Of a stretch of 64,000 bases of DNA, positions 28,456 to 64,000 are shown one piece after another. The notes beneath the pieces are model-generated. The model was not told where the DNA came from. It saw only the letters and a program-made list of their open reading frames with translations, and did not search any database. Source of the stretch: an uncultured Pseudomonadota bacterium (GTDB lineage Bacteria; Myxococcota_A; Bradymonadia; Bradymonadales; Bradymonadaceae); contig CAJXPB010000001.1 in NCBI GenBank assembly GCA_913057905.1, positions 744,001-808,000 of the forward strand. The letters are read 5' to 3'. Position 1 is the first letter of the stretch, and each line of letters starts with the position of its first letter. The position numbers and the translations under genes are program-made.

Positions 28456-28528
28456 GGGCGTGTAACTCAGCGGCGAGAGTGCCACCCCGACACGGTGGAA
28501 GTCCTTGGTTCGAATCCAAGCACGCCCA
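28456..28528 (+). tRNA. tRNA-Val (anticodon GAC), copy 1
   Basis: A 73-base cloverleaf without encoded CCA. The acceptor GGGCGTG pairs with CACGCCC, the D stem ACTC with GAGT, the anticodon stem CCACC with GGTGG, and the T stem CTTGG with CCAAG around TTCGAAT. The seven-base anticodon loop is CCGACAC (28487-28493), giving anticodon GAC (28489-28491) for valine GUC/GUU. Position 33, nearly always U, is C here (28488). An identical gene is at 56656-56728 on the other strand. A second tRNA-Val (CAC) follows 85 bases downstream. Confidence 0.93.
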
Positions 28529-28531
28529 CTC

Positions 28532-48989: not shown

Positions 48990-49023
48990 TTGAAGCCTTG
49001 CTTGGTGAGTTCTTGAAGCCTTG
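48990..49023 (+). repeat. Two close copies of TTGAAGCCTTG between genes
   Basis: TTGAAGCCTTGCTTG (48990-49004) and TTGAAGCCTTGATT (49013-49026) lie 23 bases apart in the intergenic gap between the TPMT and DUF523 genes. They are the first members of the GAAGCCT series that runs on to 62.5 kb. The tandem placing and shared flanks suggest copying of a longer unit. Confidence 0.7.
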
Positions 49024-49055
49024 ATTATGATGACGCCTACGAATCGAGACAGGGG

Positions 49056-49592
49056 TTACGGGTCCAACCGTCGGAGATGCTCGTCCGCCTGCTCGACCTC
49101 ATCCTCCGAATAGACCGCCACGTCGTAGGCTTCCAACAGTGCGGCCGTGACCCCACGCCCCCCATCTCGGACCTCACCATCAAAGTTCCCATCGTAAATT
49201 CGGCCGCTCCCGCACGACGGGCTCCCCTCCTTCAACACGGCCACCCGGGCCTCTGACTCCAAGGCTTCAAAGAGCGCCCGCCGCGCGCCGGCGACAAACG
49301 CCTCCGTGACATCTTCGCCGGATTCCGTGAGAACCCTCGCTTCGCCGGCCAACACGTCCGCTCCATCAACCCCTTCGCCCGACTCGATTTCTGCCGGAGG
49401 TCTCGGTATCTGCAACCCTCCCACGACTTCCGGACAGACCGGCACCACTCGACCCTCTCTCCGCCACCTCTCCAGGACCGAGCCCTCGACTGGGTTGGCC
49501 TCCCCGTCGTATCTCACCGGTTCGCCCAAGAGACAGCGGCTGACCAGGACATGCGCCCGAGCTTTCGGATTATCGCCAACCGTTTCAGTCAT
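49056..49592 (-). CDS. DUF523 family protein
   Basis: A 178-residue protein of the DUF523 family. The N-terminal VSRCLLGEPVRYDG (about 17-30) and VPVCPEVVGGLQIPRPPAEI (about 51-70) carry the conserved Cys residues. AVLKEGSPSCGSGRIYDG (about 120-137) is the third signature with SPSCG. The spaced cysteines suggest metal or iron-sulfur binding. The family is found alone or fused to DUF1722 and its function is unknown, although some members relate to 2-thiouracil desulfidase. Cytosolic. Two copies of the local GAAGCCT repeat (49127 and 49262, complement) lie inside this gene. Confidence 0.9.
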   Translation of the reverse strand: MTETVGDNPKARAHVLVSRCLLGEPVRYDGEANPVEGSVLERWRREGRVVPVCPEVVGGLQIPRPPAEIESGEGVDGADVLAGEARVLTESGEDVTEAFVAGARRALFEALESEARVAVLKEGSPSCGSGRIYDGNFDGEVRDGGRGVTAALLEAYDVAVYSEDEVEQADEHLRRLDP

Positions 49593-49632
49593 AGCTGAAT
49601 CTCACCTGTTGGGCCCTCGAATCGACCGGCCC

Positions 49633-51786
49633 CTACCCGTCGTCCACGGGCTCGAAGGTATACTTGGTGGTCCCCCTCCCGAAGGAGATCCGCACCCCGT
49701 CATCTGTCGTCTCGAACCGGAGGATTCCACCCACCTGGGGCTTCACCGTCAAAAACGTCATCGTCGCCGAGGATTCATCGCCCTCGCCGTCCTCTGGCTT
49801 CAAAGGCAACAACTCCGCGGAAAATTCACCCACATCGTAGGTGAGATCGCCGTCTTCCCAACGGACCTCCAACCGCCCCAGCGAGTCGTTCGTCCACGTT
49901 CCGATGAATGGCTTGACCGCCGCCTCGTCGACAGAGGTTAACCGCTCACGCAGCGACTTGAATTCCTGCGTGGTCTGTTCTCGCGCGTACGTCGCATTCT
50001 CAACCGCCTTGAGATCGGCATCGTAGAGGAGTTCGAAGAGGCGAGCGCGCACTGATTCGCTAAAGCTGTTTGCGCCCCACGCATTCGCCAAGATGACGAT
50101 GCCCAAATCATCGGAAGGGATGAAGGCGAGGTTGGAGGTAAAGCCCATTGTATTTCCGTTGTGACCGATAACGCGCTTACCCCTCAGATCGGAGACGATC
50201 CAGCCGAGCCCGTAAGACGCCTGATCGGAGATTTTGACCTGTGGCTCCCACGTCTTCTCCAGGTTCTTCTCGGACACGACCCGCGTCCCGCCTGGGGCGA
50301 CCCCGCCGGAGAGCTGGGTGCGGAGGTATCTGGTCATGTCGCCGACCGTCGACCACACAGCGCCAGCGGGTGCCAAAGGAACGGTAAACCGCTCGAGCGA
50401 GACGTCGATGGGGTCATACGTTCCCTCTAGAGTCATGCCGTGAGGGGTCGCATGATTCGAAGCCGACACGGCACGGTCAAATCGAAGCGTTGTCGACTTC
50501 ATTCCGATCGGCCCGAAGACCTCCTTCTTCATCGCCGATTCGTAGGCGGGCAACAGCTCGCCCCAGGTTCCCGTGTAGGCCGCAGCAGTCGCATATCCTC
50601 CCGCAGCGACCATCTGGTTGCTGTACTGAAACGCAGTACCGAACTCCGTAAACGGCTCAAAGGTCGCCAATTGCTCGACGACATCCTCCGCCGAGAGATC
50701 CCTGTAATTCATGAGAATCTCGAGGTCTCGCCGGGGAATACCAGTGCATGCACACAGCAGATGCCGCATCTGCACCCGGCCCGTCAGCTCTGAGGTGTTC
50801 AACTTGAACTGCGGCAACACATCGGCGGCGGGCGTCTTCCATTCAAAACGACCTGAATCGACCGCCTGAGCCATGAGCATCGCCGTCATCGTCTTCGTGG
50901 TCGACCCGATCATCATCCGTGTCTCCGTGGTCACCGACTCGGCTCCCCCTTCCTGCCGCTTTCCGAAGCCTCGCTTCCAGACGACCTGCCCATCTTTCAC
51001 CACCCCGATCGCCACACCGGGAATCCCGAAGGCATTCATCTTTTCACGAATGTGCTTCGACAGCTCCTCCTCGATCGAGGGGTCCCATGCCCCGGGTGAT
51101 ACCCCCTCGAGCGTCGAAACATCCGCCCCCTCGACCCGAAGTCCCGAATCGATGACCTGAATCTGTGAATTCCGTTTTTGGACATCCACCAATGGCCCGT
51201 CGATCAACGTGACGTATGTTCGTTCGCCAAGTCGACGCGCAACCGCCTGTCGAAAACGCTGCTTCGAACTCAATTCGTACGTGATAACGGTCAACCGCTC
51301 GAAAGGATCCTCGGCCGGCGGCGAAGCCTTGTTTCCCACGTCGAATGTCTGGTCGATCCCGACCCGCTCCCATGCCTTGCTGATCGCGGCCTCCGGGTCC
51401 GTTTCGCCCAGGGCTGTCAGGTAGACGGCCAAATCGACATTCGGCACGGAAACCACCCTGTAACCCTCGTCCAACGTAGTCGCCCAATTCTGAGGCACGG
51501 GTACCGAAAACTCACCACCTGGGCCCTCGACCCGCCTCATTCCGGGACTCTCCCCTGACTCAGCGCGTTTTGAAGCCTCGCTTCGGGTGGTCGTATCACC
51601 GGCCTGTGCCTCGGATTTTGCCTCCGAACCCCTCTTCGGGTCCTCTTCAGATGACGGCCTCGCGGTACTGCAGCTCCACAGTAGGACACATGACAGGACG
51701 GCCATCGTCGCCACCGGACTCCAGCAGCGATATCGTCCCAGACGCTTCGAGGTGATTGATGCCTTGATTGATGCCTTGCTCCTCAT
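49633..51786 (-). CDS. Serine hydrolase with beta-lactamase/PBP4-type (class C) fold, lipoprotein
   Basis: A 717-residue exported hydrolase. The signal sequence ends in a lipobox-like LLWSC (Cys about 39), after an N-terminal extension MRSKASIKASITSKR that contains a 12-base tandem duplication. A first domain (about 75-230) is of unknown type. The beta-lactamase-like domain (about 235-610) has SxxK as MIGSTTKTMTAM, the YxN motif as FQYSNQM, and HxG as VIGHNGNTMGF. A C-terminal lipocalin-like tail (about 620-717) follows. Relatives are esterases, D-aminopeptidases or transpeptidase-like enzymes. Its ATG overlaps the RCC1-like lipoprotein stop (ATGA), so the two envelope proteins are made together. 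Three GAAGCCT repeats lie in the coding region. Confidence 0.88.
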   Translation of the reverse strand: MRSKASIKASITSKRLGRYRCWSPVATMAVLSCVLLWSCSTARPSSEEDPKRGSEAKSEAQAGDTTTRSEASKRAESGESPGMRRVEGPGGEFSVPVPQNWATTLDEGYRVVSVPNVDLAVYLTALGETDPEAAISKAWERVGIDQTFDVGNKASPPAEDPFERLTVITYELSSKQRFRQAVARRLGERTYVTLIDGPLVDVQKRNSQIQVIDSGLRVEGADVSTLEGVSPGAWDPSIEEELSKHIREKMNAFGIPGVAIGVVKDGQVVWKRGFGKRQEGGAESVTTETRMMIGSTTKTMTAMLMAQAVDSGRFEWKTPAADVLPQFKLNTSELTGRVQMRHLLCACTGIPRRDLEILMNYRDLSAEDVVEQLATFEPFTEFGTAFQYSNQMVAAGGYATAAAYTGTWGELLPAYESAMKKEVFGPIGMKSTTLRFDRAVSASNHATPHGMTLEGTYDPIDVSLERFTVPLAPAGAVWSTVGDMTRYLRTQLSGGVAPGGTRVVSEKNLEKTWEPQVKISDQASYGLGWIVSDLRGKRVIGHNGNTMGFTSNLAFIPSDDLGIVILANAWGANSFSESVRARLFELLYDADLKAVENATYAREQTTQEFKSLRERLTSVDEAAVKPFIGTWTNDSLGRLEVRWEDGDLTYDVGEFSAELLPLKPEDGEGDESSATMTFLTVKPQVGGILRFETTDDGVRISFGRGTTKYTFEPVDDG
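50965..50977 (+). repeat. Palindromic repeat copy GAAGC-CTC-GCTTC
   Basis: A perfect 13-base inverted repeat with five-base arms, inside the serine hydrolase gene. The same 13 bases recur at 51572-51584 and 53960-53972. Confidence 0.8.
51572..51584 (+). repeat. Palindromic repeat copy GAAGC-CTC-GCTTC
   Basis: Second identical 13-base inverted repeat, preceded by TTTT, near the 5' end of the serine hydrolase gene (antisense to it). Confidence 0.8.
51754..51777. repeat. Tandem 12-base duplication at the start of the serine hydrolase gene
   Basis: GATTGATGCCTT occurs twice head to tail (51754-51765 and 51766-51777). On the coding strand this is AAGGCATCAATC twice, giving Lys-Ala-Ser-Ile twice near the N-terminus. 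The unit resembles the local repeat with one base changed (TGATGCCTTG against TGAAGCCTTG). Confidence 0.8.
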
Positions 51787-52748
51787 GTCTCTCCTCCCAC
51801 TTGTTCGGATTCATCCTCTTGGCTCTCCTCCGGCGAAGTCGCACGCGGAGCGTCTCCCCCAGAACCATCTCCGCCGCGGCAGATGATGTACCCACCTTCG
51901 ATGCGCCCGCAGACGAACCCATCGCCAGCCTGAATCTGTTCGAAGGGCCCGGAAATACGAGTTCCCCGCCGAGACCCGATCGGCCAGCAGACTGCCTCAC
52001 CCCCGGTCCCGAGAGCACACCGGTTGCGCCCCCGGCCGTCGACCGAGACGTAACGGCCGGTCGGGGTCGGTATGCGTTCACCCGTCTGGAGAGACCGACA
52101 CCGCACCGCCTGCCCCCCATCCAAGACGCAAACCGAGCTCCCGAAGGTCTTAACCGCGGTGATATCATCACGTTCTTCGAAGAATCGACGAGTTCGTCCA
52201 TCGCCACGGCCACAGACAACATCCTTGTCTCGGGCCAGCCCACATGTGGCCACGGCTCCCGAGGAAATGCCGGAAAAACGCCCCTCCCACGCCAGCACCT
52301 CACCCGAACCAATGCCCTGGCAGACGACGTCCCCCTCTTCGGTCAGCCCACAGACATCTCGTCCCAGTGCGAGCCCCTCGAAGCGACGCTTCCCGGAATC
52401 AAAACCACCGGCCAATGTCGGAGCCGCCCCCCAGCAACGCAGGCTTCCCGACGTATTCACACCACAGGCAAACTCATCGGTTACTTCGACGGCTCGCCAG
52501 TCCTTGGACGTCGGTGACTCCCCAACTGCTGGCCCCGTTCCCCAGCAGGCGATCCCGCCGTCGACTGTCACCCCGCAGCCCTGCGAATCAGCAACATCGA
52601 ACGTCCGAAATCTTACTGTCGATGGTTCGCTTGTCCGCTCGCTGCTGAAGGGACTCGCCCCCGTCGCACAGCCGGCTGTCACAAACAAAAGCAGGCCAAA
52701 GGCGAGCCAAAACAAGCTATCAACCTTCGTCCTCATGCGTACCCTCAT
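51783..52748 (-). CDS. RCC1-repeat-like lipoprotein
   Basis: A 321-residue protein with a signal peptide and lipobox ending VTAGC (Cys about 26). The mature part (about 45-290) has six to seven degenerate RCC1 blades. Each has a strand, then a Cys-Gly-(Val/Leu) step and a 'V.CWG' or 'LRCWG' strand, as in QGCGVTVDGGIACWGTG and FACGVNTSGSLRCWGAA. The blades should form a beta-propeller, a common surface domain in Myxococcota. The C-terminus is acidic and disordered. The stop overlaps the ATG of the serine hydrolase. A variant palindrome of the local repeat, GAAGC-GAC-GCTTC (52380-52392), and one GAAGCCT copy lie in the gene. Confidence 0.83.
   Translation of the reverse strand: MRVRMRTKVDSLFWLAFGLLLFVTAGCATGASPFSSERTSEPSTVRFRTFDVADSQGCGVTVDGGIACWGTGPAVGESPTSKDWRAVEVTDEFACGVNTSGSLRCWGAAPTLAGGFDSGKRRFEGLALGRDVCGLTEEGDVVCQGIGSGEVLAWEGRFSGISSGAVATCGLARDKDVVCGRGDGRTRRFFEERDDITAVKTFGSSVCVLDGGQAVRCRSLQTGERIPTPTGRYVSVDGRGRNRCALGTGGEAVCWPIGSRRGTRISGPFEQIQAGDGFVCGRIEGGYIICRGGDGSGGDAPRATSPEESQEDESEQVGGET
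52380..52392 (+). repeat. Variant palindromic repeat GAAGC-GAC-GCTTC
   Basis: Same five-base arms as the other copies but a different three-base centre, inside the RCC1-like gene. It suggests the palindrome rather than the GAAGCCT core may be what is conserved at some sites. Confidence 0.65.
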
Positions 52749-52821
52749 CGATCATAGATACTGATTCGTGTAGTTATATATCTAGGCTTCAAACACTCGA
52801 ATCAACAGCCTCGGGTCGACA

Positions 52822-53052
52822 ATGCGAACGTTCTTTTCGAGACTCTCCATCAAATGGCTCCTCGCTCTGACGATCCTCGCCGGGCTCGCCCCCTGGCCTA
52901 TCGGCCCCGAACCTCATCTGATCCAGAAGCTTCGCTGGCTGGCAGATGGCACCCTAACCCGGCCGATCGACCTCTTTGACCTCGCCTTTCACGCCGCTCC
53001 AGCCATTTTACTTTGCGGCAAGATCTTGGCCGATTTAACCAGTACCGAGTGA
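52822..53052 (+). CDS. Small inner-membrane protein (type often annotated 'RND transporter')
   Basis: A 76-residue protein with two hydrophobic helices (about 8-24 and 52-70). The central phrase PEPHLIQKLRWLADGTLTRP followed by IDLFDLAFH is characteristic of a small, widely conserved proteobacterial protein usually labelled 'RND transporter' although far too short to be one. Its function is unknown. The ATG at 52822 lies 73 bases from the divergent RCC1-like gene, and one GAAGCCT repeat (52784, complement) lies in that gap. It converges with the membrane protein gene at 53057, four bases away. Confidence 0.75.
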   Translation: MRTFFSRLSIKWLLALTILAGLAPWPIGPEPHLIQKLRWLADGTLTRPIDLFDLAFHAAPAILLCGKILADLTSTE

Positions 53053-53056
53053 CCGC

Positions 53057-53704
53057 TCACCACGATACTGAAACCATCGCCCCGGTTAATTCTCCGACGA
53101 GTGGTTTCACTTGAACGGAGAAATCATCGATCGCTCGATGCTGCAGATAGAGGAGCACCGCGTCGAAGGCAAAAAGGAAGCCTCCCTGAAGGATCAACGA
53201 CTGACCGAACCCCACACGACGGTCGCTCCCCTTCCGGATCCCTCTCTCCCATAGGAATCCACCCCCGACCATATAGGCGACATCCAATCCCAGGTTGACT
53301 GCGAGGATTGTACGAATCTGTTGGCTCTGCCGATAGGTCTCGATCAACCCGTATCCTGACGGGTTGTCACCCAGGGCACTCGCCAGCCCGAACGTCCCAA
53401 TCGCCGCGTTCACGATATTCCAACCGGCATTCATTTGGTGGAACGCCTTCCACCTTGGGTTGTCCGCCATGAAATAACCGGCAGTCCCCACCCCCATGTT
53501 CACGGCCGCCCACCCAAGGAGGATCGACATCCCATCGCGGTTGATACGAAGCCTCCGTTCATTTTGCTCAAGGGTCAGCTCATCGATCGAGGCCTGCACT
53601 GATCCCTGGGCAAATGCGGATCCCGAATCAACCATGATCCAGCTAAAAACCAAAAGGAGCACCCCGCAAACGACAAGCACTCTCTCCGTGTAATCGTTGC
53701 TCAC
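53057..53704 (-). CDS. Hypothetical membrane protein (DUF6992-like)
   Basis: A 215-residue protein with a signal peptide or first helix (about 8-32, ending AFAQG) and about four further hydrophobic helices. Conserved-looking phrases are INRDGMSILLGWAAVNMGVG and AFHQMNAGWNIVNAAIGTFG, then DVAYMVGGGFLWERG and GFGQSLILQGGFLFAFDAVL. The pattern matches my memory of the DUF6992 family (inner-membrane, unknown function); the label is tentative. Two GAAGCCT repeats lie in the gene (53177 and 53548) and one just upstream (53733). It converges with the small membrane protein at 53052. Confidence 0.65.
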   Translation of the reverse strand: MSNDYTERVLVVCGVLLLVFSWIMVDSGSAFAQGSVQASIDELTLEQNERRLRINRDGMSILLGWAAVNMGVGTAGYFMADNPRWKAFHQMNAGWNIVNAAIGTFGLASALGDNPSGYGLIETYRQSQQIRTILAVNLGLDVAYMVGGGFLWERGIRKGSDRRVGFGQSLILQGGFLFAFDAVLLYLQHRAIDDFSVQVKPLVGELTGAMVSVSW

Positions 53705-53787
53705 TGCGGCACCTATCCGTCAGAATCGATTGGAAGCCTCTGTCCGCACTTACGATGCATTCGGAGGACCTGCGTTTGCCATCGTTC

Positions 53788-54609
53788 TCAATCATCCGCC
53801 CCGAGCCGGTCAATCGCCGCCGGCAACCATTCGGGGTTTCCCCCCCGATCAGCGACCAAGGCTTCAAGTAGGGTTTCCAGCCGCATGCGGCACTCGGATA
53901 CGAATGGCTCGATCAATGTATCCGGTACCTCGTCTATCCCTTCCCACTGCGGGTCTCCTGAAGCCTCGCTTCGAAGTTCATCGATCGAGGGAGGGCAGAT
54001 GGGTTCACCAATTCGAAATGTGAAAGGCACCGGCCGTGCAACCGGAAGAAAGAACGGGAGCCGGTAGGAGGAATCCCCCAAAAACGGAAACGGAAACACG
54101 CCGTCCTTGGTATGAAGTGGAAAGACTTCGTCCGGTCCGACGCCCCCGACGGGCACAACCGGTGTCCCAGTCGCAATCGCGACCCTGGCGAAACCGCGTC
54201 TTTGAGCCCATTTCAACTCGTATCGCTCGTGGCTTCCCTTTACCGAATCCCTGGCTCCGCCCGGGTAAGTCACGACGAGTTGCTCCTCCTCCAAGAGTCC
54301 GATCGCATTGTCGCGCCTCCCCTCGACGATCCCCATCTCATGCAAGAGCACTCGCGCCCATGGGATTTCGAACAACGACCTCAACGCCAATCCACGCGGA
54401 ACGCGCCCTGTCTCCCTCCAGATCTCGGGAAACAACACCAAACTGTCGATTCCCAGGAGTGAATGATTTCCCACCAATAATGCCCGACCGTTCGGCAGGT
54501 TTTCGACCCCCTCGAGCGAGGCATCAAAATATCGTGCCAGTGGGCGAAGCAGCCGGCTCACAAGCCTTAGTACCGGTGCATCGGCCGGTATGTCCTTCGG
54601 TGCATCCAT
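53788..54609 (-). CDS. Lysophospholipid acyltransferase-family protein
   Basis: A 273-residue membrane-associated acyltransferase of the LPLAT/PlsC superfamily. Block I is LLVGNHSLLGIDSL (about 45-58), a variant of NHxxxxD with His and Asp kept. Block II is PRGLALRSLFEIPWARVLL. Block III is LVVTYPGGARDSVKG (about 111-125), matching the 'FPEG/YPGG' type of the diacylglycerol-acyltransferase-like subgroup. Block IV is GTPVVPVGGVGPDEVF. It moves an acyl group to a lysolipid or related acceptor, probably at the inner membrane. It diverges from the HSL-type hydrolase at 54720. Two repeats (53859 and 53960) lie in the 3' part of the gene. Confidence 0.85.
   Translation of the reverse strand: MDAPKDIPADAPVLRLVSRLLRPLARYFDASLEGVENLPNGRALLVGNHSLLGIDSLVLFPEIWRETGRVPRGLALRSLFEIPWARVLLHEMGIVEGRRDNAIGLLEEEQLVVTYPGGARDSVKGSHERYELKWAQRRGFARVAIATGTPVVPVGGVGPDEVFPLHTKDGVFPFPFLGDSSYRLPFFLPVARPVPFTFRIGEPICPPSIDELRSEASGDPQWEGIDEVPDTLIEPFVSECRMRLETLLEALVADRGGNPEWLPAAIDRLGADD
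53960..53972 (+). repeat. Palindromic repeat copy GAAGC-CTC-GCTTC
   Basis: Third identical 13-base inverted repeat, inside the acyltransferase gene; GAAG follows directly and extends the arm symmetry. Confidence 0.8.
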
Positions 54610-54719
54610 TTCATGGATCTCTTCTGCGCAACGGATTCTTCAGAATCGCATCTCTACCTTGGAGACTGCCTAATCATCAACGGCCGCCACTGGACTCACC
54701 CGAGCGATCTGAGGCTTCC

Positions 54720-55766
54720 ATGGAATTCAGTAATGCCAGAAAACTCCAGTCTGCGCTGGTTCCGCTTCCCATCGAGCGGGCAGTATCGAGCCTCGCAGTA
54801 CAGTCCCTGCTCAACGGTGCTGACAAACTAGGTTTCATCGACAAGATCCTCGGAAGCAGAGCCAGGGACATCAAAGTACAGAATGACATCTCGTATGGCC
54901 CACATGCCAGCCATCGCCTAGATATTCTCGGGCCCGCCGAGGGTAAGTCCCGTGGCTCGATTGTCTACGTCCACGGTGGAGGATTTCGAATCCTCTCTAA
55001 GAAGAGTCATGCCACAATGGCTCGACTGCTTGCTCGCGCAGGGTTTTCGGTCTTCAATATTGACTACAGGCTTGCTCCTGAGAACCCCTACCCCGCAGCT
55101 CCCGCCGACGCGACCCGCGCACTCCAATTTCTTTCGGAACAGCACAGCCACTTCGGATTTCAGCCGGAACGGTTCGCCCTGATGGGCGAATCCTCGGGGG
55201 CAAATATCGTGACTGCCTTGGCTGTCGCCATGTCTTTTGAAGCCTCGGAGCCATGGGCGCGTAAGGCCCACCAAATACAGCTGACACCACGCGCAGTCGT
55301 TCCGGTATGCGGGTTTCTACAGGTGTCGAATCCTGACCGCCTGAATCGTTCGAATCAGCTGTCGCTGTTCGCCAAGGATAAGATCGCCGAGGCCTCGGAA
55401 GCCTATCTTCCCGAAGATTACGGAGAGACACCGGACATCCCGCTGCTCGCTGACCCGCTCCTGTTTCTCGAAGGGCCACGGCATCCTGTTCGCGAGCTTC
55501 CGCCCTTCTTCACCGCAGTCGGCACGGCAGACCCCTTGCTCGAAGACACCCGCCGGCTTGAGGCCGCTCTTCGAAGTCGAGGGTCGACAGTAGAAGCCAA
55601 GTACTACGACAACGAAAGGCATGCCTTCCATGCATTTTTCTGGCGCAACGCAGCCAATGACTTCTGGAAGTCAAGTACTGATTTTCTGGGTGACTTTCTG
55701 TCTGAAGCGAAGGCATCCTCTCGGAATTCGAAACAGCCATCGCTTCTTTCGGATGCTGCCGCATAG
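54720..55766 (+). CDS. Alpha/beta hydrolase of the hormone-sensitive lipase family
   Basis: A 348-residue esterase. The oxyanion-hole motif is YVHGGGFRILSKKSH (about 85-99). The nucleophile Ser is in GESSGANIVTAL (about 155-166), and TAVGTADPLLEDTRRLE supplies the Asp. The final His is in DNERHAFHAFFWRN near residue 305. This is the HSL (bacterial type IV lipase) group acting on short-chain esters. No clear signal peptide; cytosolic or membrane-bound. The ATG at 54720 is inferred from where family similarity starts; the open frame extends far upstream over the divergent acyltransferase. A GAAGCCT copy (54712, complement) ends two bases before the ATG, and two more lie inside. Confidence 0.9.
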   Translation: MEFSNARKLQSALVPLPIERAVSSLAVQSLLNGADKLGFIDKILGSRARDIKVQNDISYGPHASHRLDILGPAEGKSRGSIVYVHGGGFRILSKKSHATMARLLARAGFSVFNIDYRLAPENPYPAAPADATRALQFLSEQHSHFGFQPERFALMGESSGANIVTALAVAMSFEASEPWARKAHQIQLTPRAVVPVCGFLQVSNPDRLNRSNQLSLFAKDKIAEASEAYLPEDYGETPDIPLLADPLLFLEGPRHPVRELPPFFTAVGTADPLLEDTRRLEAALRSRGSTVEAKYYDNERHAFHAFFWRNAANDFWKSSTDFLGDFLSEAKASSRNSKQPSLLSDAAA

Positions 55767-55787
55767 TCGTTCAGGCTCTCACGGACT

Positions 55788-56606
55788 CTAGTACCCTAGA
55801 GCTTCCGGCATGAGGGCTTCACAGCAGGCTGCAACAAAATGGGGATTGAGAAGCTCCTTCTTATTGTATCGGAGCTCTTCGCCAGACATCGTTCGAACAA
55901 CTCCTCCAGCCTGCCTGACGACACAATCCGCTGCTGCAATATCCCACTCCATCGTGGGACCAATACGCGGATACACTTGGGCCTCTCCCTCGGCGACCAT
56001 GCATAACTTGAGTGCACTGCCGACCGGCACGAGTTCAACGCCACCTTGACGGTCACTCACGCGCCTGGCGTATTCTTCGGTGTCCTCGTTGACATGCGAG
56101 CGACTCACGACGACCTTCAACTGGTCTCGCTCGGGGCAGTTTTCGGTCACGTGTAATGGCACCGTATCTCCCGAGGCCGGTCTCTTGAAGGCGCCGGCCG
56201 ATTCGGTGGCCCAGTACATCGTATTTGCGGCGGGAACCCCCACCACCCCCATCACTGGCTTCCCGGCTTCAATGAGCGCCACATTGACCGTGAATTCCCC
56301 ATTCTGCTTGATGAATTCTTTGGTCCCATCCAAGGGATCCACCAGCCAGAACCGATCCCATTCGCTTCGTTCCTCGTACTCAATATCCTCGGACTCTTCT
56401 GAAAGTACTGGGATTTCCGGCGTCATCTTACGAAGACCGTCGACGAGGACTTCGTGCGAAGAGACATCTGCCTCCGTCAAAGGTGATTTATCTTCCTTGA
56501 TTCGGGTCCCGAAATCGTCGGAGTTGTAGATCGAAAGGATTTCGTCACCCGCCTCTTCGACGAGGTCGAGGACCTTTCGAACAGTATCTTCCATGAAGTC
56601 CGTCAT
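55788..56606 (-). CDS. cysQ: 3'(2'),5'-bisphosphate nucleotidase
   Basis: A 272-residue member of the inositol monophosphatase superfamily. The metal/phosphate motif is LVDPLDGTKEFIKQNGEFTV (about 90-109), the DPLDGTKEF signature of CysQ, after EESEDIEYEERSEW. The second motif is EWDIAAADCVVRQAGG near residue 220. It hydrolyses PAP formed in sulfate activation and PAPS-dependent transfer. The ATG at 56606 fits the family start (MTDFMEDTVRKVLDLVEEAG, first 20 residues); the longer frame crosses the tRNA gene. Its neighbours are an esterase and tRNA-Val, not other sulfur genes, although a rhodanese lies at 59.7 kb. No copy of the local repeat lies in it. Confidence 0.92.
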   Translation of the reverse strand: MTDFMEDTVRKVLDLVEEAGDEILSIYNSDDFGTRIKEDKSPLTEADVSSHEVLVDGLRKMTPEIPVLSEESEDIEYEERSEWDRFWLVDPLDGTKEFIKQNGEFTVNVALIEAGKPVMGVVGVPAANTMYWATESAGAFKRPASGDTVPLHVTENCPERDQLKVVVSRSHVNEDTEEYARRVSDRQGGVELVPVGSALKLCMVAEGEAQVYPRIGPTMEWDIAAADCVVRQAGGVVRTMSGEELRYNKKELLNPHFVAACCEALMPEALGY

Positions 56607-56655
56607 AGTCTGAGGCGAGGTAGGCTCTAGGGTCGTTGTGTCGGGGACGATAAAA

Positions 56656-56728
56656 TGGGCGTGCTTGGATTCGAACCAAGGACTTCCACCGTGTCGGGGT
56701 GGCACTCTCGCCGCTGAGTTACACGCCC
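56656..56728 (-). tRNA. tRNA-Val (anticodon GAC), copy 2
   Basis: Reverse-strand 73-base cloverleaf identical at every base to the gene at 28456-28528, including the unusual C at position 33 in the CCGACAC loop. No CCA is encoded. It lies between cysQ and the RAYT gene. The flanks differ from those of copy 1, so only the tRNA itself is duplicated. Confidence 0.93.
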
Positions 56729-56801
56729 TGAGACAGTCCCGTTCACTATGCCAGCACCGGACAGATTTCAACCCAACACACCGACTCGGTGACCCAACGG
56801 C

Positions 56802-57842
56802 TCAGTTCATCTGCTCAGGAGGGTCGACACCCGTAAACACCTGGAGCCGCGCCAGGACCGGCAGGGGTGGCAACGCAGCTCTTTCATCCTCATTCTCCCG
56901 ACACGAAGCTCGCCAGACCGAGTCGAGCAGACCGACGGCGAACCGTCGGGCCCGATTGCACCGGTCCCCACCCAGGTTGCTGAAGACCGGGCAGGACGGA
57001 TACCTTCGCTGTTCAGGTGGAGTCGGCTTCAGAATACGCCGTTTCCCATTGAAATAGACCTTCTTCCAACCATCTGGCAATTCAGGAAGAGGCAAATTGA
57101 AATAGAGCTCGACCTCCTCTTCCGAGGCCCAGACCGCGTCCAGCCCGTCGGTCAGAACCGGGTCGGAAATCTCATCTTCGCTCAAGTAGTACCGCGCCGA
57201 GTGCCAAGGCCAAGAAAGAACCTCATCCACGAGCGATTCGTAGTCAGAATCGAGGGCCAACTCGCATTCGTCCTCGAGAGACTCTAACCCCTTCGGCACT
57301 GTCGGCGGCACAAGCAATTCACGAATGGTCTCCGCATGGTAGGCCTTCAGGTGATTGGCCTCGACGTAGAAGATGCAATTGTGCAGATAGAGATCGGATT
57401 TGATGCCCTTTGCGTGGTAGGGGCCCGCCCACAGAGTGCCCGCGCCCCATTTGTCGGAGGAGTAGGCATACGAGCTTTGTTCCTTCCGCCGCAGCCGTTT
57501 GAATTTCCGTGTAAACTGAGCTTTCAAGTTTCCGATCGTCTTGTCTAGAGCCTGACAGTCCGACTTCGCTTCCAAAATTAGGTGGAGGTGGTTTCCCATC
57601 AGGCTGTAGTGGATGACCGAGTAACGGCCGACCCGCGCATAGTGCTGAATCAGCTCCTGCAGCAGCTCCTTCGCCTCTTGGTGCTCGAGGTACTTGCGCT
57701 CCAAATTGCATCGCGTCGTTACGTGAATGAACGTGCCGTCTTCCGGGTAGACTCGGCCATCTGAGTCGGTCTCGAGTTCGAAATAGTCGTAGTCAATTTG
57801 ACGTTCGACATTCTGCTCGGGCTGCTTCATGAGATAGTTCAT
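56802..57842 (-). CDS. REP-associated tyrosine transposase (RAYT, Y1/IS200-like)
   Basis: A 346-residue protein whose N-terminal about 200 residues are a Y1_Tnp (TnpA_REP) domain. GTFIHVTTRCNLERKYL (about 36-52) is the opening strand. VIHYSLMGNHLHLILEAKS (about 78-96) holds the HUH motif His-Leu-His that binds the metal. YLHNCIFYVEANHLKAYHA (about 150-170) is the helix with the candidate catalytic Tyr. RAYTs are domesticated single-copy relatives of IS200/IS605 transposases that nick and move short palindromic REP elements. The C-terminal 140 residues are acidic and unlike standard RAYTs. I found no GTAG-type REP hairpin beside it, but the GAAGCCT motif island surrounds it. An ATG at 57830 is an alternative start. 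Confidence 0.87.
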   Translation of the reverse strand: MNYLMKQPEQNVERQIDYDYFELETDSDGRVYPEDGTFIHVTTRCNLERKYLEHQEAKELLQELIQHYARVGRYSVIHYSLMGNHLHLILEAKSDCQALDKTIGNLKAQFTRKFKRLRRKEQSSYAYSSDKWGAGTLWAGPYHAKGIKSDLYLHNCIFYVEANHLKAYHAETIRELLVPPTVPKGLESLEDECELALDSDYESLVDEVLSWPWHSARYYLSEDEISDPVLTDGLDAVWASEEEVELYFNLPLPELPDGWKKVYFNGKRRILKPTPPEQRRYPSCPVFSNLGGDRCNRARRFAVGLLDSVWRASCRENEDERAALPPLPVLARLQVFTGVDPPEQMN

Positions 57843-57970
57843 TCTCCCCCCAATCGCTCATCGTCTGCAGATTCCTCGCCCACCAACTGTTTTCGCCGCG
57901 ATCTTATTTTTGTTGCGAACTACCTCTCTCCTCCTACGGCTTGGGTCCTGAGCACTAGACGACACTTAAT

Positions 57971-57989
57971 TCATACTTGACAGGTATGA
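57971..57989. promoter_or_regulatory. Inverted repeat TCATAC-N7-GTATGA upstream of the cytochrome gene
   Basis: Two perfect six-base arms (57971-57976 and 57984-57989) flank TTGACAG. It lies about 90 bases before the cytochrome start, in the 238-base gap after the RAYT gene. The size and position fit a dimeric repressor or activator site. The TTGACA in the spacer could be a -35 element, but no good -10 follows at the right distance. Confidence 0.35.
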
Positions 57990-58080
57990 TATTTCGCATT
58001 CTCCTCCCATCTGCCCGGGGTCCCGCGGCTGGGAATTCGAGAGTTGGCGCACATCCTCCTGGCGACTTTCAAAATCAATA

Positions 58081-59670
58081 GTGTCCGACAAACACGAAGT
58101 CTCACAAAGTGATGGATTGGATGGATCGTCGCCACGTCAATCCGGCGGTCCCACCATTGCCATTCTCGGTGTATGCGCACTCCTCCTCGGATCCGCTGCG
58201 ATTTGGTTCGCCGCTGGCTCCGACGCCACGAACGACATGACAGCAGAGAGTTCAGGCAACTCAGTGGCAGACCGATCCGGACGGGCCAGCTCCGAATCTG
58301 TCGACTCCGAGGCTTCAAATATCGGTGACGAAGAGGTGTTGAAGGCCGCTGAGGACTTCTACAGCTCACGCCCTTACTACCAGCAGCCCCTGGGCCATCT
58401 CGAAGTCCCCGACGGACTGCCGAACCTGGAGGCGGAAACGTGCGGCGGATGTCACACTGAAATTTATGAGGAGTGGTCAATTTCGACCCATCGAAGAGCC
58501 TGGAAACAAGATGCCCAATTTATGGCAGAGCTCGAAAAATCACGCACCGGGTCGACAGCCGAGGATTCCTCTAAGGACGATGTCGGATGGATGTGTGTCA
58601 CTTGCCATACCCCGGTCACAAACCAACTTGAGCGGGTCGTAGTCGGATTGCGAGACGGCAACATCGGCCAACCAATCTACCGAAAAAACCCATCCTACAA
58701 TCCAAGGCTTCAAGAAGAGGCGATTACCTGCGCGACATGCCATGTTCGCAACGGGAAAGTTTATGGCCCATACGGCGACACCGACGCTCCGCACCCCACG
58801 GCAAAGGATCCGAGCTTGAGAGATTCGAGTACATGTACCGGATGCCATCAGGCCGAGGCCCACTGGCCGAGCCGCTCACTCGCATGCTTCTTTTCAACGG
58901 GTGAAGAATGGAGCCAGTCTCAGTACGCGAAAAATGGCGAGACATGCCAGTCGTGTCACATGCCGACAGTCAACCGTAAACTCGCCAAAGGGTTTGACCG
59001 TCCGAAGCGGAAGACTCGACGGCATTGGTTCGGAGGCTCACTTATACCCAAGCATCCGAAATACAACGAGGAGATTGCCAGGCTTCAAAAGGTGTACGGA
59101 AGTGGTGCGGAGATTACCCTGATCCCGGCCCAGGAGGCTCAGAACGTAGAGCGCGCCTCGAATGGTTCTCTAAAAACATCGTCCTGCCCCCCAGATCGGT
59201 CATGCCGCAGCTATATCGTCCGGATTACGAACGAGCATGCGGGTCACTACCTACCAACGGGCGATCCTGAGAGGCATCTGGACGTCACGGCCACTGTTCG
59301 GACGGAGGATGGAACTGTCGTAACCGAAGCCTCCCAGCGCATTGCTTCGAAGTACAAATGGTGGCCGGAAATTCGCGAACAGTACGACAATCGTTTGCCT
59401 CCGAAGGAGCATCTGGACTTCGAGGTCCATATCCCGAAAGGAGGTGACGACTACTCAATTCAGATTTCGGCCCACAAGTATCGGATGTACATGGAAGCCT
59501 TCGAACATCACGATCTTGAAGGCGAATACGTCCGGGGCCGAAGCTTCTTTAACGCACGCTGGCACATCGACTCTGCAGGAAATCTGACGCTGGAGAGGAA
59601 AGTAACCGACAAAGAAAAGGTGATGAATGACAGCCATACTGGAAGGCCCGAGGGCCCGGATCACCGGTAA
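58081..59670 (+). CDS. Membrane-anchored pentaheme c-type cytochrome
   Basis: A 529-residue protein read from a GTG at 58081. One N-terminal helix (about 23-43) acts as an uncleaved anchor, followed by a Ser-rich linker. Five haem-binding CxxCH sites are present: CGGCH (about 121), CVTCH (about 178), CATCH (about 219), CTGCH (about 251) and CQSCH (about 292). They are followed by a beta-rich C-terminal domain (about 380-520) with NEHAGHYLPTGDPERHLDV. The layout recalls the cytochrome c554-type family of multihaem proteins found beside sulfur or nitrogen redox enzymes. The rhodanese gene follows 26 bases downstream, so the pair is probably an operon. Electron donor and acceptor are unknown. 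Five GAAGCCT repeats lie in the gene. Confidence 0.88.
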   Translation: MSDKHEVSQSDGLDGSSPRQSGGPTIAILGVCALLLGSAAIWFAAGSDATNDMTAESSGNSVADRSGRASSESVDSEASNIGDEEVLKAAEDFYSSRPYYQQPLGHLEVPDGLPNLEAETCGGCHTEIYEEWSISTHRRAWKQDAQFMAELEKSRTGSTAEDSSKDDVGWMCVTCHTPVTNQLERVVVGLRDGNIGQPIYRKNPSYNPRLQEEAITCATCHVRNGKVYGPYGDTDAPHPTAKDPSLRDSSTCTGCHQAEAHWPSRSLACFFSTGEEWSQSQYAKNGETCQSCHMPTVNRKLAKGFDRPKRKTRRHWFGGSLIPKHPKYNEEIARLQKVYGSGAEITLIPAQEAQNVERASNGSLKTSSCPPDRSCRSYIVRITNEHAGHYLPTGDPERHLDVTATVRTEDGTVVTEASQRIASKYKWWPEIREQYDNRLPPKEHLDFEVHIPKGGDDYSIQISAHKYRMYMEAFEHHDLEGEYVRGRSFFNARWHIDSAGNLTLERKVTDKEKVMNDSHTGRPEGPDHR

Positions 59671-59696
59671 ATAACTGTCAAACCAGGATCGAAACC

Positions 59697-60644
59697 ATGA
59701 CTATTTTCACCGAGAACGTCTCTGATCGGCTGCGATTGCTACCGGCACTCTCCCTCTTCGCGCTGGTCGGACTCCCACTTCTTCTGACACCAGCGAACGG
59801 ATACGCAGAAGACTCGGGTTCGTGGCAGTACGGGTGGATCGTCGAACCCTCCGACGCCGAACAGTTGATCGCCAAAAACGACCTCACCATCCTCGATGCT
59901 CGATCAAAGGAGAACTACGAGTCTGGGCACATCACCGATGCAATCCATGTGGCGTGGGATACGTTTACGCCTCATGAAGCCTCGGAACGCGGTAAGCTCC
60001 TCGATGCGAAAGCCCTTCGAAAAAAGCTCACAGAGACGGGAGTAGATTTCGAACATCCCGTCCTGGTCGTCGGCCAACCACCAGACGGGTGGGGTGAAGC
60101 GGGCCGGATAGTCTGGATGCTTCGAACCCTCGGACATCCGGCTGCTGCACTGATAGACGGCGGGCACTCGGCACTTGTCCAAGCAGGCCTCGACACCTCG
60201 ACTTCTGAACCTCAGCCAGAAGGGGCGGAGGTTCGTATTGAGGAGACAACCGAATGGCTGGCGACACGACGGGAGGTCGCTTCAGCCATCGAAGACAAGG
60301 ATTGGGTCCTCCTCGATACCCGCGAACGCCGCGAATACGAGGGCGCAATCCCGTATGGCGAATCCCGAGGTGGACACATCCCAGGGGCGGCTCATCTTCA
60401 CTACCGCGACCTGATGAATTCCAACGGACGGATCCTGCCCGACACCGAGATAAAGAGGCTTCTGCAAGAGCGCGGGATAGGGCCTTCCACACCTGTCATC
60501 GCGTATTGCACGGGGGGAGTACGCTCCGCCTGGGTCACGGTTGTACTCACAGAACTGGGGTATGAGGTAAAAAACTACGCGGGTTCCACCTGGGAATGGG
60601 CAGAATACCCACCCGAGACTCATCCACTCGAACAGAGCGATTAA
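59697..60644 (+). CDS. Periplasmic two-domain rhodanese (thiosulfate/3-mercaptopyruvate sulfurtransferase type)
   Basis: A 315-residue exported sulfurtransferase. A signal peptide (about 1-39, ending ANGYAEDSG) is followed by two rhodanese domains. The N-terminal one (about 50-165) has LDARSKENYESGHITDAIHV and lacks a catalytic Cys (VVGQPPDGW at the active loop), as usual for the inactive half. The C-terminal domain (about 190-300) has LDTRERREYEG, GGHIPGAAHLHY and the active loop YCTGGVRSAW with catalytic Cys. It transfers sulfane sulfur to an acceptor. Cotranscription with a pentaheme cytochrome suggests a periplasmic sulfur-redox step (inference). Two copies of the local repeat lie in the gene. 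Confidence 0.9.
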   Translation: MTIFTENVSDRLRLLPALSLFALVGLPLLLTPANGYAEDSGSWQYGWIVEPSDAEQLIAKNDLTILDARSKENYESGHITDAIHVAWDTFTPHEASERGKLLDAKALRKKLTETGVDFEHPVLVVGQPPDGWGEAGRIVWMLRTLGHPAAALIDGGHSALVQAGLDTSTSEPQPEGAEVRIEETTEWLATRREVASAIEDKDWVLLDTRERREYEGAIPYGESRGGHIPGAAHLHYRDLMNSNGRILPDTEIKRLLQERGIGPSTPVIAYCTGGVRSAWVTVVLTELGYEVKNYAGSTWEWAEYPPETHPLEQSD

Positions 60645-60677
60645 AATCGCCGCACCCGCGACGTGAAACGCCGACGG

Positions 60678-63062
60678 TTAGAGCGTGCCAACTTCTCGGA
60701 TTGGTTGGCAAACGACGCCCATCGCGTCGATCATAGTTCCAGACCGAACCTTCATTCCCACCATGACCTGGCCGGCAGGGCATCGAACTTGAACCGACGG
60801 CCCTCCCTCTCCGATCGAAGCCTTCGTCGAAACGACCTCGGACGACCCCTTAACCGTCGAATCCCCACACAGGCCACGGATACGTCGGACCAGTTGGTCG
60901 GCCCCACCCTCCAGTCCAATCATGAAGTGGTTTGAAGCCTCGCAGCGCAGGTTCGTTTTTCCAACTCCCCTTCGACCCCAGAGCGGACCCTGGAGTGACT
61001 CCCCGGCGGCCCACGCCCTGTCATCAACGTTCACAGGACGACAGGTGACCCGGATTGAGCCGATCGCATTCTGTTGCGGTGAACGTGTCGTCTCGATCGA
61101 GGAGACCGCCCAGCCGAGTGGACACCGCCAACGGTGCATATTTCCGCCGGTTCCGCCCACTACCTTCTGGAACGAAGGCTTCCCGCCGCAAAATTTGTGG
61201 TAGGCATCGAGGGGATTCGCTGGAATCGTCAGACCGTGGAGGGCGACCGACCGGTACATGTTCCTGATGAACTCACCGAATGATAGCGGCCCTCCGACTG
61301 AACGAAGCAACGTCCCGAGGCTCCCGCACCTCATCGCTTCGCGAGCCGCGGTCACTCGGACGTCTTCTCGGTACGTCTTGGCTGCCATGCGCGCGACGTA
61401 CCATGCGTTCTCCAGGCTCTTTTCATGACCTGGGCGGCCGCGGTTTTTTAGCTCAAGACGTGCAGCCACGGGGTCCGCCAACCCGACCTTGTCGACCAAA
61501 TGGGCGCGCTTGCCCAAAACCATACCCTTGATCCCCATCGCCACCCGCAGCGCGGAGAAAACGATCCCTCGATTCGCAATGTGTTCGGCCAGCGGGTACT
61601 CATCCCGACTTGGAATGAGCTCTCCATTGCGATGGGGCTCTACCACGACAAACCGCTCACAATCCTCTTCGGAAGGACCGGCCTGCGCCGGGATCCCTCC
61701 GGAAAACAAAGGGGGGCAACGCTCACCGACGCGTTCTAGAAGCCTTCGGGCCGAAGTGTAGAAATGAAAGTCCGAGTAGTCTTCGACCTGCACGGGATTT
61801 GAGACCCCCGCCTGTCGACTGTACCAGCCCCGCTCGTCACCGATTCCGTGCTGATTCTCCTCAGGCACGCGAAAATATCCCGCACACACGACGGCCCAGA
61901 GGACAATTGCGGCGACAGCGCCGCACCGCCTCCAGGACCATGAGATTGTTTCATTCGGAGCCTCCCATCGGACAGGAAGGAACATCAGCGGCAAGCACAA
62001 CCCGAAGAACGGGGGGAGCAATAGGCGCCCGTGCATGAATCCGCCGCCGATCCGGACCACGTACCCGATGTAGAGAAGGCTGCAGACCACCGGGACGGTA
62101 AGGCCGAGCAATCGCCGACCGTGAGACTCTTCCACACTTCGAACCAAGGCTTCCAACCATCCCAGCCCGAGTAAAACGAGCGGAATCGCGAGCAGATACA
62201 TCCCGAAGAAGTTTTCGGCGAAGTACAGCCCCTGGGTCCAATTCGCTCCGAAAGCCGATTTGGCGAAGGCAGTGTTCGGCACCAGGGCCGCATAGTACCC
62301 CATCCGAAACAACTGGTATCCTACGGGAATGGCGCCGGCCGAAGCTGCGAGGCTTCCAAAACCGCCCCAGTCCAAGTGGCCATTTCGATAATCGGCCAGA
62401 AGAATAGACCCCAGCCATCCAATCGAGAATAGAGCAAGCTCGGGACGCACCAGCGGCCCCAGGCCTGCGATCATCCCCGCCGCCAAACGAAGCCTCACAT
62501 CGGGAGGTCCGCCCCCATGCGCATCTCGCTGGTAAGCGTTTACCGAGAGGAACGCTCCACCGAGCCACAGCAAGGCGAGCCCTGTTTCGAGCCCCGAACT
62601 CGCATAGTCCCAGGCAACCGGGACGGCAGCGTAGGTGATGGCCCCGGCCGGAAAGAGCCACCGACGACTCACGGCATCGAAAAGCGTTTCATCCGACTCC
62701 GCATAGAGAATCACACTGCCCAGCATCGCCAGGGCAAGCCCAAAAACGGAGCAGACGATCCCTCCGACGACCGCGCCCGCTTCGAGGGGAGCGCCAACTG
62801 CGGACACGAATGTGATCAACCCGACCCACAGAGAACTTGTAAATGCCTCAACGCGTTCCCCGAGGTTGAACACCGGACCGTACCCGGCGAGTATATTGCG
62901 CACGACTCGGAGATTGATGAAACCGTCATCGCTCATCCAACGGCGCTTCCACCCCATGACGGCGAAGAGACCGATGGGTAATACCGCGACGACCCACCAA
63001 ACAACGAACCATACCCTTCGCTTCAGCCCACTCCCCTCCGGATTGTCTTCGCTGCCTTCCAT
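60678..63062 (-). CDS. Large membrane glycosyltransferase-like protein with C-terminal Cys/Gly lectin-like repeats
   Basis: About 794 residues from the ATG at 63062 (AGGA just upstream); the frame can extend 23 codons further. Eleven or so hydrophobic helices fill residues about 15-400. The opening SDDGFINLRVVRNILAGYGP and FNLGERVEAFTSSLWVGLI resembles the DD-motif region of GT-C arabinofuranosyltransferase AftB and related bacterial proteins. A soluble part follows (about 420-640). The last 160 residues hold three similar units with the pattern 'C..G......(I/M)...G..(I/V).(R/G)...C', the clearest being VRCPAGQVMVGMKVRSGTMI. The tail looks like a secreted carbohydrate-binding domain and should lie in the periplasm. 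Acceptor glycan unknown. Seven GAAGCCT repeats lie in the gene. Confidence 0.75.
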   Translation of the reverse strand: MEGSEDNPEGSGLKRRVWFVVWWVVAVLPIGLFAVMGWKRRWMSDDGFINLRVVRNILAGYGPVFNLGERVEAFTSSLWVGLITFVSAVGAPLEAGAVVGGIVCSVFGLALAMLGSVILYAESDETLFDAVSRRWLFPAGAITYAAVPVAWDYASSGLETGLALLWLGGAFLSVNAYQRDAHGGGPPDVRLRLAAGMIAGLGPLVRPELALFSIGWLGSILLADYRNGHLDWGGFGSLAASAGAIPVGYQLFRMGYYAALVPNTAFAKSAFGANWTQGLYFAENFFGMYLLAIPLVLLGLGWLEALVRSVEESHGRRLLGLTVPVVCSLLYIGYVVRIGGGFMHGRLLLPPFFGLCLPLMFLPVRWEAPNETISWSWRRCGAVAAIVLWAVVCAGYFRVPEENQHGIGDERGWYSRQAGVSNPVQVEDYSDFHFYTSARRLLERVGERCPPLFSGGIPAQAGPSEEDCERFVVVEPHRNGELIPSRDEYPLAEHIANRGIVFSALRVAMGIKGMVLGKRAHLVDKVGLADPVAARLELKNRGRPGHEKSLENAWYVARMAAKTYREDVRVTAAREAMRCGSLGTLLRSVGGPLSFGEFIRNMYRSVALHGLTIPANPLDAYHKFCGGKPSFQKVVGGTGGNMHRWRCPLGWAVSSIETTRSPQQNAIGSIRVTCRPVNVDDRAWAAGESLQGPLWGRRGVGKTNLRCEASNHFMIGLEGGADQLVRRIRGLCGDSTVKGSSEVVSTKASIGEGGPSVQVRCPAGQVMVGMKVRSGTMIDAMGVVCQPIREVGTL

Positions 63063-63204
63063 AAGTCCTATAACCGCTGTTCGTTGGCGGCGCAAAACAT
63101 GCCAGAAGTCTGCGTGAACATCTACTTGCAACGGTCGACTTCGACAACCACTTGATTAGAATCCGGACAAATGTCCAGTCCAAGCGCCTCCTCAGTCTGC
63201 GGAG

Positions 63205-63819
63205 TTGCAGATGAGACACCTCTTGTCGCGGTCTCTTCCTTTGGGGATCACAATTGGCTTGTGTTGGAGCATCTGCTGGTTTCCGGTAGCTCCGGGTGAC
63301 GCCCAACCCCCGGCGGAACAAGACCAAGAAAACCCCGAGGTCTGGCGTCGGGTCCCCGAGCGGCCGACATCCGTCACGGTGACCTTCGATTCCTTTCGGG
63401 TGTTCGAAAAAACCGGACAGTTGCACGTAGATTTCGAACTTCGAGATGGCACTTTGGAAACCCTGAAAAAATTCGACATTCACCTCTGGCTCAGCGCGCA
63501 CGTAAAACGTGAGAATATTGCTCCATCCAGCGGTTACACTGCAACCGAAACACTTTCGGGCACCAACGAATCGATCACGTTTCCGGACTGGTTAGATATA
63601 CCCGCGAGTCGCCGGATCCACCTCTGCCTGATGGGTACGACCCCAGCGGACAACCTGGCACTGGGCCGTGGGTATTTCTGCACCGAGTGGACGATGTGGG
63701 ACGTCAAAACGCGCCGGAAAGCCTCGGATGCCATCGTAGCTTTGACAATCGAGTACAGACCCGGCGTTATGCCTTATCCGTCTCGTCTGGGGAACCTGCC
63801 GCAGCTCCCTGACTACTGA
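63205..63819 (+). CDS. Hypothetical secreted protein
   Basis: A 204-residue protein with a signal peptide (about 1-34, ending PGDAQPP); an ATG at 63211 (MRHLLSRSLP) is an equally good start. The mature part is beta-rich with phrases such as TSVTVTFDSFRVFEKTGQLH and YTATETLSGTNESITFPDWL. It contains two Cys (IHLCLMG and GYFCTEW), which could form a disulfide. I do not recognise the family. It diverges from the glycosyltransferase gene and is followed by the ArsC-like gene on the same strand. No repeat of the GAAGCCT type occurs here; one near match (AAAGCCTCGG, 63718) is present. Confidence 0.6.
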   Translation: MQMRHLLSRSLPLGITIGLCWSICWFPVAPGDAQPPAEQDQENPEVWRRVPERPTSVTVTFDSFRVFEKTGQLHVDFELRDGTLETLKKFDIHLWLSAHVKRENIAPSSGYTATETLSGTNESITFPDWLDIPASRRIHLCLMGTTPADNLALGRGYFCTEWTMWDVKTRRKASDAIVALTIEYRPGVMPYPSRLGNLPQLPDY

Positions 63820-63920
63820 GCGAGTGTCGACACACTCAATACAACCGACTATTCGACCTTCATGGACACGACCGCTCCGACAAACAAATCCCAAATCCTC
63901 TCGATCCCAACCTCTAAACC

Positions 63921-64000
63921 ATGACGAACCAGCTCACCGTTTGGCACAACCCGAAATGCTCTAAATCCCGAAAGACCCTGGAGCTTCTAGAGAAGCGAGG
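63921..64000 (+). CDS. ArsC/Spx-family arsenate reductase-like protein (5' fragment)
   Basis: Only the first 26 codons are inside the window. They read MTNQLTVWHNPKCSKSRKTL, then ELLEKR. The pattern 'HNPKCSKSRKTLELL' is the active-site loop of the ArsC/YfgD family, whose Cys12-equivalent (here about residue 12) reduces arsenate with glutathione/glutaredoxin; Spx-like regulators share the fold. The ATG follows the secreted-protein gene by 101 bases. The rest of the gene, and any arsenic genes beside it, lie beyond the right edge. Confidence 0.85.
   Translation, partial: MTNQLTVWHNPKCSKSRKTLELLEKR

Follow-up and report, generated by a model that had tools for sequence, protein, structure and literature searches.

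The window considered here is a 64,000-nucleotide stretch of contig C1 (C1:744001-808000) from the 4.25-Mb, 13-contig genome of an uncultured member of the Bradymonadaceae. Its right-hand part holds a dense swarm of the seven-base motif GAAGCCT, scattered on both strands through and between genes of ordinary function, which over the whole swarm include those for a 2-thiouracil desulfurase, a beta-lactamase-type protein, an acyltransferase, a hydrolase, CysQ, a multihaem cytochrome and a rhodanese, as well as RlmD, MnmC and an aro-men cluster (several of these functional names are our own reading of the sequences). Between positions 48992 and 62495 there are 31 copies, 18 on the plus and 13 on the minus strand, where dinucleotide and trinucleotide models predict 1.9 and 3.0, respectively; the copy counts, confirmed by exact recount, agree with the preliminary description of this DNA. 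That description had also put about eight copies outside the segment, where the remainder of the window has 10, and had ended the swarm before the last 1.5 kb, which holds only as far as the window's edge: a further copy spans the boundary itself (C1:807998; first three bases at 63998-64000, minus strand), and the swarm goes on through C1:808-832 kb. The whole swarm comprises 67 copies over ~40 kb, from window position 48,990 to C1 ~832 kb (window coordinate ~88,000), with the two strands about equally used (36/31). On the density profile, the motif domain thus occupies positions 48992-64000 of the window and reaches ~24 kb beyond its end.

The swarm is confined to one part of the genome, as judged by pattern searches and sampled stretches, on which all genome-wide statements here are based. 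Core sites occur at 2.4 per 20 kb elsewhere (25 stretches sampled outside the domain), in contrast to peaks of 19 and 23 per 10 kb within it, and 17 of the 23 exact matches to TTGAAGCCTYG in the entire 4.25 Mb fall within 33 kb; the density is therefore far from uniform along the genome. The left edge is sharp, at about C1 791.5-793 kb, whereas to the right a plateau ends at 816 kb, a weaker part at 832 kb and a thin tail at ~900 kb. This tail is real, since the region from 834 to 920 kb, which was kept out of the training of the weight matrix described below, has 28 cores vs 10.3 expected and seven strong sites vs 0.69 expected. The swarm pattern itself is solid.

A position weight matrix (PWM) learned from the domain sites gives the full motif as TTTGAAGCCT-Y-G-S-W-T-C. 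Only four instances of the extended form proposed earlier, TTGAAGCCTCG, are present in the window, and the actual extended motif is TTTGAAGCCTYGSWTC. PWM scores are partly circular within the domain; core counts, the tail and the Fisher tests, for which background cores served as the reference, are less so. The seven-base core is all-or-none, as its 21 single mutants have no notable excess in the domain, and it is accompanied by flank preferences that together span 16 bp. Thus, TT precedes the core at 27 of 67 domain sites vs five of 90 cores elsewhere (p=1e-7), A or T stands at +10 in 61/67 vs 49/90 (p=4e-7), G at +8 in 40/67 vs 28/90 and C at +12 in 37/67 vs 29/90, and T at +11 is likewise preferred in comparison with the 90 background cores. 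A and T are about equally frequent at +10, as are C and G at +9, an interchange that resembles what is seen with minor-groove contacts. The right half of the motif loosely mirrors GAAGC, with three bases at the centre. Rather than four sites of the palindromic form GAAGC-N3-GCTTC, there are five in the window, three of which are swarm GAAGCCT sites. An all-or-none core with flank preferences is typical of protein-DNA recognition, and these preferences, combined with the loose mirror symmetry, suggest that double-stranded DNA is read by a protein, probably dimeric and with some of its contacts in the minor groove.

Within the window, the copies are distributed as follows, with the strand and PWM score given in parentheses. 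Just left of the edge, a strong-scoring copy lies inside a spermidine-synthase-like gene at 47513-47519 (minus, 18.8). The domain then opens with an intergenic doublet in the same orientation, 23 bp apart, at 48992-48998 (plus, 22.7) and 49015-49021 (plus, 16.9). The DUF523 gene has two sites, encoding EAY at 49127-49133 (minus, 12.0) and EAL at 49262-49268 (minus, 27.3). The beta-lactamase-type gene has three, at 50965-50971 (plus, 24.8; on the opposite strand to the gene and palindromic, GAAGCCTCGCTTC), 51323-51329 (plus, 11.3; opposite strand) and 51572-51578 (plus, 27.7; again palindromic, GAAGCCTCGCTTC). A site in an RCC1-like gene at 52441-52447 (minus, 16.8) and an intergenic one at 52784-52790 (minus, 16.4) precede two on the opposite strand to a DUF6992 gene, at 53177-53183 (plus, 7.2) and 53548-53554 (plus, 19.4), and another intergenic site at 53733-53739 (plus, 15.9). 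The PlsC-like acyltransferase gene carries one copy encoding EAL at 53859-53865 (minus, 21.6) and a palindromic one (GAAGCCTCGCTTC) on the opposite strand at 53960-53966 (plus, 22.9). For the alpha/beta-hydrolase gene, sites are found at the gene start (54712-54718; minus, 18.2) and where EAS (55239-55245; plus, 24.6) and EAY (55398-55404; plus, 11.7) are encoded.

Further to the right, the multihaem cytochrome gene contains five copies: three on the opposite strand, at 58310-58316 (minus, 22.1), 58705-58711 (minus, 25.4) and 59080-59086 (minus, 20.4), the latter two aligning without gaps to orthologues that lack the motif, and two in frame, encoding EAS at 59326-59332 (plus, 10.7) and EAF, residues kept in relatives, at 59494-59500 (plus, 16.6). 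The rhodanese gene has an EAS site at 59976-59982 (plus, 21.1) and, on its opposite strand, one with weak flanks at 60456-60462 (minus, 0.8). Seven sites lie in the gene for an 817-residue membrane protein: 60817-60823 (plus, 12.8), 60934-60940 (plus, 22.0), 61739-61745 (plus, 7.4; without A or T at +10) and 62489-62495 (plus, 18.2) on the opposite strand, plus 61176-61182 (minus, 16.4), 62147-62153 (minus, 24.4; EAL) and 62350-62356 (minus, 19.2). The copy that straddles the window end scores 22.6.

Across the whole swarm, 55 of the 67 copies are inside delimited genes, and three more lie at C1:807.9-808.3 kb, in a frame read from the sequence as ArsC-like. Intergenic DNA is denser, with some nine copies in a total of roughly 3 kb; among them are closely spaced doublets in the same orientation, at distances of 23, 16 and 23 bp, and one doublet has a degenerate third unit. 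Conserved aroC and menB are without copies. A compositional or coding artefact, be it a preference for Glu-Ala-Ser/Leu codons, low GC or assembly error, might be suspected, given that in-frame GAA GCC T is the commonest frame (21/55) and that the left half is slightly AT-richer. However, synonymous-codon shuffling gives 9.4±3.0 copies vs the 56 counted in coding sequences, so that the copies are not required by the encoded proteins; all frames and both orientations are used, intergenic sites occur too, and no other 7-mer of the region comes near such an excess. Composition, codon bias and repeat proteins are ruled out by the 7-mer comparison and the shuffles, in keeping with the preliminary view that neither codon bias nor shared domains explain the copies, and an artefact of any such kind is scarcely credible. 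The excess over the shuffles, together with the use of all frames and both strands, indicates instead that the motif is read as double-stranded DNA.

Wherever orthologues exist, to which sites the comparison is confined, they are almost all ungapped and lack the motif, e.g. MenF, where EALHPT stands against DALHPT; the cytochrome, RlmD, MnmC and AroBA sites behave likewise, and one orthologue carries the identical seven bases at the conserved EAF. The copies therefore arose by substitution and not by insertion, which settles a question raised by the preliminary description. Among the substitutions that created them are amino-acid changes at variable positions, implying selection on DNA inside genes. 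The idea of a mobile mini-palindrome accordingly falls: flanks are unrelated past about 16-17 bp, and the near-universal absence of gaps excludes insertion of REP (repetitive extragenic palindromic) elements as well. Some transposases act on REP elements carrying a GTAG-type tetranucleotide, and on that model the array might alternatively be tied to the IS200/IS605-type (Y1) transposase gene at 56802-57842, which lies inside the swarm, and the motif does begin with GAAG. Yet the copies are not hairpin elements with shared flanks, and their origin by substitution refutes the insertion version of this proposal. Moreover, the 2.9-kb stretch with CysQ, a tRNA-Val gene and the transposase is free of copies, which fits young or constrained DNA and not a source, making a link to the transposase very improbable. 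The tRNA-Val(GAC) gene (56656-56728, minus strand) adjoins the transposase gene, also on the minus strand, and a second tRNA-Val(GAC) gene is present at window 28456-28529. Scans for promoters, terminators and Rfam families returned nothing beyond one tRNA.

The array appears to be species-specific, being absent from the sampled relatives. Neither the genus mate (Bradymonadaceae bacterium LUM.15, a metagenome-assembled genome) nor any other member of the family or of the 379 phylum genomes shows an excess of the motif, none having more than a few copies or going beyond its own control; the stringent pattern reaches at most three copies in any other genome vs 11 here, and genus-mate contigs with the orthologous genes are at background motif density. 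Closer relatives were sought among genome contigs, and the search returned only LUM.15 and a genome that is unrelated. The closed relative G008 was sampled as 140 blocks of 12 kb, one every 36 kb, and no strand-balanced 7-mer forms a comparable swarm there, the leading signals inspected being repeats, some of them protein-coding; any claim that such arrays of other motifs are rare covers this one genome. Various local repeats were encountered in the course of these surveys. The relative G011 has REP-like palindromes (CCTTCCCC-N2-GGGGAAGG) at several per kb (L111:14773-18492), and G004 has a pair of tandem arrays, opposite in orientation, whose 22-24-nt units carry CGGTGAGC (L116:2470-3339). 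G008 contains a 44-nt and inverted repeat array around TCTGGCA (L311:4206-6249) and an array of ~177-nt repeats containing GCCGACAAGAGCAGGATGCTCTTGCTCC (L325:10845-11897). Elsewhere in the host genome, there are ten CAATTGT matches in 1.2 kb (L011:4058-5264; C1:668-669 kb), some in a longer palindrome and unlike the swarm motif, and places where a CGTCGTACGTCCTACG-type repeat is clustered, with eight CGTCCTA copies (L028:4467-5208; C5:64-65 kb).

The region looks vertically inherited. Compared with the genus mate, domain genes have a median amino-acid identity of 52 %, and genes sampled elsewhere 47 %; this, and the lack of any motif-rich genome among those sampled from the phylum, speaks against the earlier suggestion of a segment acquired from a distant genome in which the motif is common. 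An integrative element or island is likewise rejected, in view of the housekeeping aro, men and mnm genes, the normal similarity to the genus mate and a composition that is mildly atypical only in C1 794-814 kb (slightly low GC and atypical tetranucleotides; ranks 2 and 6 of 86, the first rank being 0). A viral source was also discarded, as a search of IMG/VR with the doublets gave chance-like matches, and no comparable dispersed array was noticed. A subtler version of acquisition would be homologous recombination from an unsampled close relative with the motif genome-wide, such that the domain and its patchy right tail represent recombined tracts. The unusual composition of 794-814 kb would suit such a history, and a genus sampling of two genomes leaves room for an unsampled donor. 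On the other hand, 814-834 kb bears the swarm at typical composition, domain genes stand to the genus mate much as others do, and the 379 phylum genomes without a motif-rich member include the sampled members of the family, so that recombination of this sort seems unlikely.

Comparable in probability would be an uptake- or transfer-sequence-like drive that piled up the motif in an often-exchanged segment, for example one transferred or packaged from the sharp left edge rightward. The density of ~1.6/kb is of the same order as that of uptake sequences in Haemophilus and Neisseria, and a short invariant core with loose flanks, in both orientations and mostly genic, would be expected of such a signal, as would the asymmetric profile with its long right tail. 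However, decay under uptake drive should leave one-mismatch variants, of which there is no excess, and no transfer or packaging genes were recognized among the swarm genes examined. Known uptake sequences are, furthermore, genome-wide, at hundreds to thousands per genome (PMC2346458). The locality of the swarm and the absence of genome-wide over-representation thus speak against the uptake-sequence role put forward in the preliminary description and leave this type of drive a rather doubtful explanation.

The reading that we favour, with roughly even confidence, is that the swarm is a binding-site array for one sequence-specific, probably dimeric DNA-binding protein and marks a ~40-kb domain of a chromosome arm, similar in principle to MatP/matS or RacA/ram though much denser. 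The locality, core and flanks support the prediction, already made in part by the preliminary description, of a sequence-specific binding signal kept to one segment. As regards position, dnaA is on contig C3 and not on the contig of the domain. The sign of the GC skew on C1 does not change within the domain or to either side of it, so that the domain is probably within a replication arm; on these two grounds, a replication origin and a skew switch are rejected. GC skew is -0.17 in the 8-kb bin at C1 792-800 kb, three to four times the contig norm, and rises to about zero at C1 832 kb (C1:784001-840000, window 40001 onward), possibly as a result of gene orientation. A search for dif in four genomes with the proteobacterial consensus found none. 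A primary centromere is rejected too, as the parS consensus TGTTNCACGTGNAACA occurs only on contig C8 and the single ParB_N match in the genome is on C4.

The mechanism behind the swarm is a matter of inference and is envisaged as follows. Selection or drive acts on the DNA, at high density in one place and one species, and has rewritten ordinary genes; the predicted protein would coat a single ~40-kb piece of the chromosome arm; and the coated piece might then act as a marked nucleoprotein domain, serving in anchoring, compaction or positioning. More tentatively, and at less than even odds, the array could represent a fast-evolving, species-specific address system of more than 60 sites in one arm, created through coding sequence and recognized by a putative new binder, i.e. 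a second centromere-like or anchoring domain apart from ParB/parS. Several observations weigh against a protein-bound chromosomal domain. The transposase aside, no DNA-binding domain was recognized in the swarm genes scanned, which were not all of them, and neither dnaA nor a GC-skew switch, beside which such arrays are usually found, lies close to the domain. Were this a core function of the chromosome, it would be odd for every sampled relative, the genus mate included, to lack the array and for G008 to show no analogous swarm built on a different motif; the asymmetry between the sharp left edge and the long right tail also fits poorly.

A literature search, thin on subscription journals, produced no account of a comparably dense, domain-limited array, and comparison must therefore be with systems that share some of its features. 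The DNA uptake sequences of Haemophilus (uptake signal sequences) and Neisseria (DNA uptake sequences) have an invariant core, looser flanks, use of both strands and a genic location in common with the swarm, but are genome-wide, in contrast to the one domain seen here; were the motif a transfer or uptake signal after all, it would be, to our knowledge, the first that is confined to a single segment. As in ParB/parS, the cluster of sites could nucleate a partition complex, although the host has a canonical parS and ParB, and the swarm motif is unrelated to parS. MatP/matS, whose sites have a 5-3-5 layout, offers another parallel, in that the motif is a short, near-palindromic 5-3-5 site and its copies are limited to one chromosomal domain. 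The Ter macrodomain of E. coli, however, has 23 matS in 800 kb (PMC3330122), as opposed to 67 sites in ~40 kb, and differs in location (Ter vs probably an arm) and in a site sequence that is unrelated. In Bacillus subtilis, RacA/ram likewise consists of short sites limited to one region, beside a landmark, that anchor that region of the chromosome (PMC4949633), but ram sites are mainly in the 250 kb beside oriC, whereas the present array covers 40 kb of a contig that has no dnaA, and no RacA-type protein was identified. The RefZ-binding motifs of the same organism are near-palindromic sites that mark positions on the chromosome arms (PMC6657595), as the swarm may do, yet they number five and are conserved across the genus, in contrast to 67 in one place and one species. 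Known bacterial domain-marking arrays are sparse and occupy the surroundings of the origin or terminus, or else a few positions on the arms, and the array described here is far denser than matS or ram and in a different kind of place. If the favoured reading is true, address systems can arise fast and at unexpected places, this one having rewritten ordinary genes over 40 kb, and the domain would offer a natural setting in which selection on non-coding information within genes could be measured.

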